Assembly (NCBI RefSeq): GCF_023278085.1
Contig: NZ_CP066265.1
Coordinates: 5,032,501-5,096,500 of the forward strand
DNA from: Pseudomonas syringae
Lineage (GTDB): Bacteria > Pseudomonadota > Gammaproteobacteria > Pseudomonadales > Pseudomonadaceae
Length of the DNA: 64,000 bases
Direction of reading: 5' to 3'
Positions 39,404 to 42,169 of this stretch are shown one piece after another; within the stretch, counting starts at the first letter, position 1; every line of letters starts with the position of its first letter. The position numbers and the translations under genes are program-made. The notes beneath the pieces are model-generated. The model saw nothing but the letters and a program-made list of their open reading frames with translations, did no database searches and was not told where the DNA came from.

Positions 39404-42169
39404 ATGACCCAAGCGCCGCTCGTCCTGGTGGACGGTTCTTCTTACCTCTACCGCGCCTTCCACGCACTGCCACCCCTGACCACGTCCAAAGGGCTGCCGA
39501 CCGGCGCCGTCAAAGGCGTGCTGAACATGCTCAAAAGCCTGCGCCGCCAGTATCCGGACAGCCCGCTCGCGGTGGTTTTCGACGCCAAGGGCGGGACGTT
39601 CCGTGACGCGCTGTACACCGACTATAAAGCCAACCGGCCCAGCATGCCGGACGATCTGCGCGTGCAGGTCGATCTGCTGCATGCCTGCGTCAAAGGCATG
39701 GGCTATCCATTCCTGTGCGTGGAAGGCGTCGAAGCGGATGACGTGATCGGCACCCTGGCGCGCAGCAGCGCGGCGGCGGATCGGCCGGTGGTCATCTCCA
39801 CCGGCGACAAGGACATGGCGCAACTGGTCGACGGGCATATCACCCTGGTCAATACCATGACCGGCAGCGTGCTCGACGTCGCGGGCGTGAAAGAGAAATT
39901 CGGCGTCGGCCCGGAGCACATCATCGATTACCTCGCGCTGATGGGCGACAAGGTCGACAACATTCCCGGCGTGCCGGGCGTCGGTGAGAAAACTGCCGTC
40001 GGCCTGCTGGTTGGCGTCGGCGGCGGGATCAAGGAGCTCTACGACAACCTCGACAAGGTCGCGACCCTGCCGATTCGGGGCGCCAAGACCCTGGCTGCCA
40101 AGCTCGAAGAACACCGCGAGATGGCTTTCCTGTCCTACGAACTGGCGACCATCAAGATCGACGTGCCGCTGGACATCGAGCTGGATCAGTTGCACTGCGG
40201 CGAGCCGGACCGCGATACGCTGATGGAGCTGTACGCCGAACTGGAATTCAAAAGCTGGATCGAAGACCTGCAACGCGACGCCAAGCGTGCCGGACAGGAG
40301 CTGGCGGTTGAAGAACCCACAGTCGAAGCCAAAGAAACGGCCTATGAGGTCATCCTCGAACAAGCCCAGTTCGATGCCTGGCTGAAAAAGCTTCAGGCCG
40401 CGCCGCTTTTCGCCTTCGTCACCCAGAGCAACGGCACCGACGCCCAGCGTGCGCAACTGGTCGGTCTGTCTTTCGCCATCCAGACCCACGAAGCGGCTTA
40501 TATCCCGCTGACTCACTCGTACATGGGCGTGCCGCAGCAACTGGACCGCGACACGGTGCTCAAGACGCTCAAGCCGTTGCTGGAAGACCCGGGCAAGATC
40601 AAGGTCGGCCAGCACGCCAAATTCGCCATCAACCTGCTTGCCAACTGCGCGATCGATGGCGATCAGGCGCAGGGCATCGATTTGCAGGGTGTCAGGTTCG
40701 ACACCATTCTGGAGTCCTACGTCCTCGACTCCACGGCGACCCGCCACGACCGCGACAGCCTGGTGGCCAAGTACCTGACGCACACGCCGATAAACTTTCA
40801 GGACATCGCTGGCAAGGGTGCCAAACAGCTGACCTTCGACCAGATTGCACTGGAGCAGGCGGGCAACTATGCCGCTGAAGAAGCCGATCTGACCCTGCGC
40901 CTGCATGAAGTCTTCGACGCCCGCCTGGCGGCAATCCCGACCTTGCAGCCGGTGCTCAACGATATCGAAATGCCGCTGGTGCCGGTGCTGGCCCGTATCG
41001 AGCGCCAGGGCGCGCTGGTCGATGCCAACCTGCTGGGCATCCAGAGCGTCGAGCTGGGCGACAAGATGACCGCCCTGGAGCGCGAAGCCTTCGCCATTGC
41101 CGGTGAAGAGTTCAACCTCGGCTCGCCCAAGCAGCTCGGGGTGATTCTCTATGAAAAACTCGGCATGCCGATCCTCAGCAAAACCGCCACCGGCCAGCCT
41201 TCGACTGCCGAAGCGGTGCTGGCTGAACTGGCCGAGCAGGACTTCCCGCTGCCCAAAGTGCTGATGCAGTACCGCTCGATGAGCAAGCTGAAGAGCACCT
41301 ACACCGATCGTCTGCCCGAGCAGATCAACCCGCGCACCGGGCGCATTCATACCTCTTACCATCAGGCGGTAGCGGTGACAGGCCGCCTGTCCTCCAGTGA
41401 TCCGAACCTGCAGAACATCCCGATTCGTACCGCTGAAGGCCGACGCATCCGTCAGGCGTTCGTGGCACCAAAAGGTTACAAACTGCTGGCCGCGGACTAT
41501 TCGCAGATCGAACTGCGGATCATGGCGCATCTGGCGAAGGACGAAGGCTTGCTGCACGCGTTCCGCAACGACCTGGACGTGCACCGGGCAACGGCGGCGG
41601 AAGTATTCGGCGTCGAACTGGACGGCGTCACCAATGACATGCGACGCAGCGCGAAGGCGATCAACTTTGGGCTGATCTACGGCATGAGCGCGTTCGGTCT
41701 GGCCAAGCAGATCGGCGTCGACCGCAAGCAATCACAGGCCTACGTAGACCGTTACTTCGCCCGCTACCCCGGCGTACTCGACTACATGGAGCGCACCCGC
41801 GCCCAGGCCGCCGAGCAGGGTTTCGTCGAAACCATCTTCGGTCGCCGCCTGTACCTGCCCGACATCAATGCCAAGAACCCGTCCCTGCGCAAGGGCGCGG
41901 AGCGCATGGCGATCAACGCGCCAATGCAAGGCACCGCCGCCGACATCATCAAAAAAGCGATGGTGGCGGTGAACGGCTGGCTGGATGCGTCAGGGCTGGA
42001 TGCGCGCGTCATCCTGCAGGTACACGATGAACTGGTGCTGGAAGTGCGCGAAGACCTGGTGGATCAGATCAGCGAACAGATCCGTCCGCACATGAGCGGG
42101 GCAGCAGAATTGGCCGTGCCACTGCTGGTGGAAGTGGGCGTGGGCAACAATTGGGACGAGGCACATTGA
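39404..42169 (+). CDS. polA: DNA polymerase I with degenerate proofreading site
   Basis: This 921-residue enzyme acts in Okazaki-fragment processing and repair. The N-terminal 5'-3' exonuclease domain is intact (LVLVDGSSYLYRAFHAL, VVFDAKGGTFRDALYTDYK, GDKVDNIPGVPGVG). The polymerase domain is intact, with ADYSQIELRIMAHL, RRSAKAINFGLIYGMSAFGL and the catalytic QVHDELVLEV. The 3'-5' exonuclease domain (about residues 325-510) keeps its fold signature but lacks its four metal ligands: by alignment to E. coli, D355 is V339, E357 is Q341, D424 is A408 and D501 is E493. Proofreading is therefore probably absent, as in Taq polymerase. The start is ATG 39404 (MTQAPLVLVDGSS). It is divergent from the DUF2782 gene. 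Confidence 0.97.
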   Translation: MTQAPLVLVDGSSYLYRAFHALPPLTTSKGLPTGAVKGVLNMLKSLRRQYPDSPLAVVFDAKGGTFRDALYTDYKANRPSMPDDLRVQVDLLHACVKGMGYPFLCVEGVEADDVIGTLARSSAAADRPVVISTGDKDMAQLVDGHITLVNTMTGSVLDVAGVKEKFGVGPEHIIDYLALMGDKVDNIPGVPGVGEKTAVGLLVGVGGGIKELYDNLDKVATLPIRGAKTLAAKLEEHREMAFLSYELATIKIDVPLDIELDQLHCGEPDRDTLMELYAELEFKSWIEDLQRDAKRAGQELAVEEPTVEAKETAYEVILEQAQFDAWLKKLQAAPLFAFVTQSNGTDAQRAQLVGLSFAIQTHEAAYIPLTHSYMGVPQQLDRDTVLKTLKPLLEDPGKIKVGQHAKFAINLLANCAIDGDQAQGIDLQGVRFDTILESYVLDSTATRHDRDSLVAKYLTHTPINFQDIAGKGAKQLTFDQIALEQAGNYAAEEADLTLRLHEVFDARLAAIPTLQPVLNDIEMPLVPVLARIERQGALVDANLLGIQSVELGDKMTALEREAFAIAGEEFNLGSPKQLGVILYEKLGMPILSKTATGQPSTAEAVLAELAEQDFPLPKVLMQYRSMSKLKSTYTDRLPEQINPRTGRIHTSYHQAVAVTGRLSSSDPNLQNIPIRTAEGRRIRQAFVAPKGYKLLAADYSQIELRIMAHLAKDEGLLHAFRNDLDVHRATAAEVFGVELDGVTNDMRRSAKAINFGLIYGMSAFGLAKQIGVDRKQSQAYVDRYFARYPGVLDYMERTRAQAAEQGFVETIFGRRLYLPDINAKNPSLRKGAERMAINAPMQGTAADIIKKAMVAVNGWLDASGLDARVILQVHDELVLEVREDLVDQISEQIRPHMSGAAELAVPLLVEVGVGNNWDEAH

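Follow-up and report, generated by a model that had tools for sequence, protein, structure and literature searches.

The polA gene of the window and its proofreading site

The DNA analyzed here (the window) is a 64,000-nucleotide stretch of the genome of a plant-associated Pseudomonas syringae that carries polA, the gene for its principal DNA repair polymerase, DNA polymerase I (Pol I). This is the only PF00476 (DNA_pol_A) gene in the whole genome and so its sole family-A polymerase gene, which excludes a second polymerase of this family. Among proteins that carry a species name, those closest to its product belong to Pseudomonas cannabina and to further P. syringae-complex members. The features of the gene, in window coordinates, are as follows.

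39404..42169, + strand: polA, DNA polymerase I; intact open reading frame, 921 amino acids plus stop
39419..40213, + strand: 5'-3' exonuclease (FEN) domains, residues 6-270; PF02739 and PF01367 above cut-off
40310..41804, + strand: homologue of the block (about codons 302-800) in which the intact and the inactive alleles of close relatives diverge; we propose no swap for the window itself
40343..40918, + strand: DnaQ-like 3'-5' exonuclease domain with metal ligands lost, residues 314-505; PF01612 above cut-off, predicted model matches Klenow
40418..40420, + strand: V339 codon (E. coli D355), by alignment to E. coli Klenow chains
40424..40426, + strand: Q341 codon (E. coli E357), same alignment
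40430..40432, + strand: N343 codon (equivalent to E. coli 359; intact Pseudomonas proteins have T), which accompanies V339 in both inactive clades
40625..40627, + strand: A408 codon (E. coli D424), same alignment
40880..40882, + strand: E493 codon (E. coli D501), same alignment
41039..42160, + strand: polymerase domain, residues 546-919, catalytic acids intact; PF00476

The translated protein was aligned to E. coli Klenow chains with HMMER (E value of 2.3e-230 against 1kln). V339, Q341, A408 and E493 fell opposite E. coli D355, E357, D424 and D501, the four carboxylates that bind the catalytic metals for proofreading in E. coli Pol I. Excerpts of a study of Helicobacter pylori Pol I also name D355, D424 and D501 (PMC3121766). 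An earlier note, made from the letters alone, had quoted motifs that begin at residues 336, 402 and 489, and both its residue letters and its coordinates were right. Its statement that all four ligands are lost holds for three of them, which are replaced outright by non-carboxylates (V, Q and A), but the fourth is a carboxylate altered conservatively, because D501 becomes E. The DEDDy metal site of the window PolA thus reads V, Q, A, E with the tyrosine (Y489) kept, in place of the D, E, D, D, Y of an active proofreading site.

The remainder of the protein has the make-up of a DNA polymerase I (PolA1), with 5'-nuclease domains, a DnaQ-like exonuclease fold and a family-A polymerase domain with its catalytic acids. 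The polymerase acids D698, D875 and E876 were present in 339 of 339 sequences, and the FEN residues D10, D60, E110, D112, D113, D135, D137, D182 and D185 were invariant among 28 aligned PolA proteins, confirming the earlier note's view that both sets of motifs are intact. The protein therefore resembles the H. pylori type, in which ligands are substituted and the fold, here by prediction, is kept. Judged from these residues, proofreading is almost certainly gone from the window PolA, with polymerase and 5'-nuclease functions retained.

It is very improbable that proofreading persists through the altered ligands (E493, and E408 in the second clade described below) or through nearby acids. D501E and D424E are conservative changes; D501E could leave residual metal binding, and D424E might leave residual activity in the second clade. 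In the window, however, non-acids occupy three of the four ligand positions, and we saw no new acid beside the lost ligands, where the earlier note had asked whether replacements might lie. D346 is not new, being D in 160 of 166 unique intact proteins as well. Moreover, the excerpts of PMC3121766 describe an H. pylori Pol I that is inactive in proofreading with three ligands missing.

Ligand loss in the genus Pseudomonas

Of the 397 genus genomes that had a match (398 were searched), we examined polA in 260, which were picked by likeness to two queries and are a nonrandom sample. Written in the order D355, E357, D424, D501, the ligand states were DEDD in 193 genomes, VEED in 34, VQAE in 21, VQDE in 5, VKDD in 2, VQDD in 2, and VEDD, DRDV and DEAD in 1 each, so that at least one ligand was substituted in 67 of 260. 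Named records, 79 of 80 fetched, gave 67 DEDD and 12 substituted proteins in a set that overlaps with the 260; the substituted ones include P. californiensis, P. viridiflava, P. brassicacearum, P. mandelii, P. lini and P. violetae. The window's own state, VQAE, occurs in the 21 genus genomes and in 2 of the 79 named records (the sets partly overlap). The earlier note had argued against sequencing error, and we likewise reject sequencing or assembly error, since ligand states recur across many independent assemblies.

At least two ligands were lost in every P. syringae-complex genome read, save those of P. cichorii and P. capsici. A second ligand-loss clade, mostly VEED, lies in the P. fluorescens complex. 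The DRDV state was found in a lone genome (L244, G156), which has E357R and D501V and retains D355 and D424, and DEAD in another (L278, G375) with D424A only. D424A, a term also met in the literature, is a classic laboratory exonuclease-minus change.

Two loci were dropped from the counts, L106 (no long polA frame) and L001 (window gene cut short). A copy at a contig edge (L217) was omitted from trees, dN/dS and per-site counts, and duplicates were removed wherever proteins are called unique. L106, from Pseudomonas sp. KNUC1026, lacks a long frame though its protein matches span residues 1-920, and a frameshift or assembly error is possible. Two records (L078/L059) are perhaps misnamed: one titled P. 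viridiflava (p13.H9) falls well outside the syringae complex, and the polA of the other, titled Pantoea sp. Cy-639, shares 80% identity with that of the window.

A shared change in two inactive clades

The earlier note had proposed mapping the substitutions on trees of Pseudomonas PolA. Doing so revealed what the note had missed: nearly all syringae-complex genomes read share the loss, it recurs elsewhere in the genus, and the block around it is exchanged by recombination. Per-site counts used 31 unique proteins of the syringae complex, 42 of the fluorescens clade and 166 with DEDD. D355V is present in every inactive protein of both clades, nearly always with N at position 359, while the additional ligand changes differ between and within the clades. 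Residue 343 (E. coli 359) is N in 72 of 73 unique V339 proteins and T in 166 of 166 unique DEDD proteins. In the syringae complex, all inactive proteins have V339; E357 became Q or K, D501 became E in VQDE and VQAE, and D424 became A in VQAE only. In the fluorescens-complex clade, V339 occurs with E341 kept (one protein has Q), and D424 is mostly E. Elsewhere in the 73 V339 proteins, position 345 (L361) is variable, some proteins have lost F473, all 73 retain R455, and Y497 is Y or F. L361 and F473 are wedge residues.

A simple ladder from VxDD through VQDE to VQAE in the syringae complex fits the tree of flanking genes, but the rpoB and gyrB tree, in which some VQAE rows branch first, does not bear it out. 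This order of the steps is therefore only a possibility.

We favor two origins of the V339 loss over one. A tree of the 5'-nuclease and polymerase parts (54 rows) rejected the V339 proteins as one clade (AU test, P = 6e-6), and the later ligand changes took different courses (D424E in one clade; E357Q/K, D501E and D424A in the other). A single origin of an inactive exonuclease block, followed by recombination between the syringae and fluorescens complexes, strikes us as unlikely, although several observations are in its favor. The exonuclease protein tree (240 rows, trait columns included) places the V339 rows in one group with one V/D change; a single V339 clade is not rejected once the trait columns are removed (56 rows, P = 0.60); the block is mobile inside the genus; and over residues 313-360 the synonymous divergence of VEED from near intact rows, at 0.55, is somewhat raised over the 0.31-0.51 of other segments. 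Against this, synonymous divergence from the syringae complex in the exonuclease segments is about the same for the fluorescens V clade as for its intact neighbors, and synonymous sites lend no support to a syringae-complex source for the VEED block. Transfer of the exonuclease block alone between the two complexes is possible.

Probable exchange of an exonuclease-polymerase block

In order to place ligand state in its genomic surroundings, we counted the V/D changes that different trees need, using 223 rows (14 of 237 rows without both flank genes were excluded, and L108, L110 and L111 also were left out). The tree of the flanking genes thrB and engB needs 9 changes, compared with a lowest value of 53 in 100 shuffles. 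Within polA, the count is 7 for the 5'-nuclease part, falls to 2 for the exonuclease part (trait columns removed) and 3 for residues 506-699, and is 9 again for residues 800-920. The ligand state thus tracks an exonuclease-polymerase block and not its surroundings.

Individual alleles illustrate this. L131 (G183), which is DEDD, and P. lini L051, which is VEED, are 94.5% identical in the flanks and 94.9% in the rest of polA, compared with 81.2% in the block (P = 2.9e-27). The nearest alleles to L131 have V for residues 2-150 and 801-920 and DEDD for the segments from 313 to 800, with a tie at 151-300. Since the L131 block shows no greater similarity to other intact alleles than the L131 flanks do, this swap could have run in either direction. 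The converse case is L229 (VQDD), which matches the intact alleles L170 and L187 at 81-82% in the block and 90-91% in the rest.

We also built an rpoB and gyrB tree of 30 genomes, which were chosen to include mixed neighbors; the groups tested on it had been defined once the polA trees were known. The inactive GM18 comes out as the sister of L131 (support 100/99). A 12-row clade (97/96) unites P. cichorii and P. capsici with 10 inactive rows, and within it the two group with core syringae, represented by two rows (100/100). A grouping of the 10 inactive rows together without P. cichorii and P. capsici was rejected (P = 6.8e-6). The fluorescens V set as one clade also was rejected (P = 5e-102). 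Ligand state needs 7 changes on this tree (200 shuffles gave a lowest value of 5 and a mean of 9.4). Stretches of rpoB were open on both strands in 25 of the 30 genomes.

P. cichorii is 72-74% identical to three syringae rows in the block, compared with about 82% in the rest of polA, and its fingers segment is unlike that of the syringae rows. The simplest reading is import of a working block into P. cichorii and P. capsici, which would most likely have regained proofreading in this way; in this and the other exchanges we infer the direction. The genus has two main forms of the fingers segment at PolA residues 759-768, YGMSAFGLAK and YGMGAQKLGK. The former occurs in all 77 V339 loci of the 339, while the other 262 loci are split 122 and 128 plus rarer forms, and this segment may be another exchanged block.

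Taking these results with those on the window, we assign a probability of roughly 0.8 to the following reading: the window Pol I has an exonuclease domain that is dead for proofreading but kept as a fold, it belongs to a set of alleles in which an exonuclease-polymerase block is exchangeable, and the working block of P. cichorii and P. capsici is most likely a regain.

Constraint on the inactive exonuclease domain

The earlier note had attributed the loss to relaxed selection. This was borne out for the catalytic pocket, which drifts, but constraint on the rest of the exonuclease domain is similar to that in intact relatives. Pairwise dN/dS values in the exonuclease domain were 0.084 for VQAE, 0.078 for VQDE, 0.055 for syringae VxDD (3 pairs) and 0.079 for VEED; four intact sets gave 0.076, 0.051, 0.086 and 0.163 (the last being putida-like), and the single cichorii-capsici pair gave 0.117. 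Maximum-likelihood omega values, with 14 rows each, were 0.032 (VQAE) and 0.046 (VEED) against 0.037, 0.053 and 0.054 for intact sets. In the same rows, the ratio of exonuclease to polymerase omega was 2.1 and 2.4 for the inactive sets versus 1.5, 1.6 and 1.8 for the intact ones, a slight relaxation of inactive exonuclease domains relative to their own polymerase domains. Entropy at 15 chosen pocket positions and in the rest of the domain was 0.40 and 0.41 in inactive syringae proteins and 0.28 and 0.21 in the fluorescens clade, versus 0.21 and 0.54 in 163 intact rows (L108, L110 and L111 left out). The domain is 193 residues long in 73 of 73 unique inactive proteins and in 127 of 163 intact ones. 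Together, the constraint, length and entropy figures indicate that the pocket is relaxed and that the domain is not decaying.

Structure prediction is consistent with this. An AlphaFold2 model of the window PolA had a mean pLDDT of 87 and a pTM of 0.66, with 18 of 19 ten-residue blocks of residues 311-500 at a pLDDT of at least 80, and its best PDB matches were Klenow fragments (about 608 columns, about 60% identity). The catalytically dead exonuclease domain thus appears, from the model, to be retained as a folded part of the enzyme.

These figures bear on why the domain is kept. Simple neglect, in which Pol I proofreading matters so little that the domain decays under relaxed selection, would explain the drift of pocket residues in both clades, the slightly higher omega ratio, and the substituted motifs that excerpts of a survey report in about half of bacterial Pol I proteins (PMC12926913). 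We nevertheless lean against it, as omega across the domain stays at 0.03-0.05, the length is fixed, and an identical pair of changes (D355V and N at 359) marks both clades.

Comparisons between states gave higher dN/dS values: 0.179 for VEED to near intact proteins (0.243 in the N-terminal half), 0.160 for VQAE to VQDE and 0.151 for VQAE to VxDD. A burst of change at the loss is suggested but not proven by these values, because one intact set also reaches 0.163. Such a burst would suit repurposing, in which the noncatalytic domain would hold single-stranded 3' ends or a partner and favor extension past mismatches and lesions, with loss itself selected. The retained constraint and predicted fold, the recurrence of D355V with N at 359, and the translesion synthesis performed by H. 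pylori Pol I, according to the same excerpts of PMC3121766, also agree with this idea. We nonetheless doubt it. A scaffold role for the polymerase domain accounts equally well for the constraint, the putida-like intact set comes close to the raised values, and L361 and, in part, F473 are themselves replaced. In addition, a PolA2-like clamp motif, QxxLF (searched as Q..[LM][FL] in residues 290-515), was found in 0 of 31 unique inactive syringae-complex proteins.

Predicted consequences for DNA synthesis

As three carboxylates are replaced by V, Q and A, the two catalytic metals would not be held, and a mispaired primer end would therefore not be excised. Removal of 5' flaps and gap filling would continue, as the intact motifs suggest, and by analogy with H. 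pylori the window PolA would fill gaps and mature Okazaki fragments without editing. In our reading, the exonuclease-polymerase block is exchanged by homologous recombination, so that strains could switch between proofreading and nonproofreading alleles. A broader proposal is that Pol I proofreading in Pseudomonas is a switchable module, in which dead and working blocks circulate, loss repeatedly follows one route (D355V plus N359), the dead domain is kept for a noncatalytic task, and regain of the P. cichorii type occurs by import. We offer this only tentatively, as a possibility short of even odds.

The window's genome has a DnaQ above the family cut-off, a Pol II and three Y-family matches; one Y-family polymerase domain lies on the second contig (G000 C2:1904-2332). 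With DnaQ present, replication by Pol III should still be proofread. A raised mutation rate from the loss of Pol I proofreading is possible by analogy, and the earlier note's suggestion that the window PolA itself raises it is plausible given the H. pylori precedent. Compensation by gain or loss of Pol II was rejected. Among 80 chosen genomes, half with substituted and half with DEDD PolA (40 each), 78 had PF00136, and the two others, G299 and G126, both VKDD, are too few to carry any weight. These two had no family-B (Pol II) match and may be without Pol II as well as without Pol I proofreading.

Relation to known DNA polymerases

Loss of Pol I proofreading is already known elsewhere, by assay in H. 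pylori and by survey in about half of bacterial Pol I proteins. In the excerpts of PMC3121766, purified H. pylori Pol I, which is without D355, D424 and D501, shows no proofreading activity; it extends mismatched primers, and its translesion synthesis is mutagenic. Work cited there found that loss of proofreading in E. coli Pol I gives a mutator biased to the lagging strand. The survey, covering more than 3,000 species, found DEDDy substitutions in about half of Pol I orthologues, largely by phylum (PMC12926913, excerpts). The word "Pseudomonas" is absent from the main text of that survey, and among the best literature matches (titles and abstract starts of open-license papers) we found no report of Pol I proofreading loss, or of its parallel loss or exchange, in Pseudomonas.

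The window PolA shares its fold and domain order with E. coli Pol I and Klenow fragment but has V, Q, A and E where E. coli has D355, E357, D424 and D501. It is orthologous to H. pylori Pol I (HP1470), whose fold was judged likely to be preserved and which has lost D355, D424 and D501, as excerpted from PMC3121766. The same text gives H. pylori only Pol I and Pol III, whereas the window's genome adds Pol II, DnaQ and Y-family polymerases; also unlike the H. pylori case, close relatives of the window PolA are intact. As in Firmicutes, Tenericutes and Actinobacteria, the substituted site lies in a canonical three-domain Pol I, but inactivation in those phyla is largely phylum specific (PMC12926913, excerpts), whereas here it varies inside one genus. 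PolA2/APEX of Actinobacteria, described in the same excerpts, also is a family-A polymerase with an inactivated exonuclease domain; it differs from the window PolA in lacking the 5'-nuclease domain and in carrying, within its dead domain, a clamp motif that we did not find in the window protein.

What seems new is the recency, recurrence and exchange of the loss within one genus. The loss looks recent and appears to have arisen more than once, with working and dead versions swapped between strains by recombination. The value of Pol I proofreading to bacteria is unsettled, as about half seem to be without it, and in the published phylum-wide pattern, history and function are hard to separate. 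Homology by itself is no ground for labeling these proteins proofreading polymerases. Pseudomonas offers close relatives with and without proofreading, intermediates and natural swaps, so that the effects on mutation rate, strand bias and lesion bypass could be set side by side in strains whose backgrounds nearly match.
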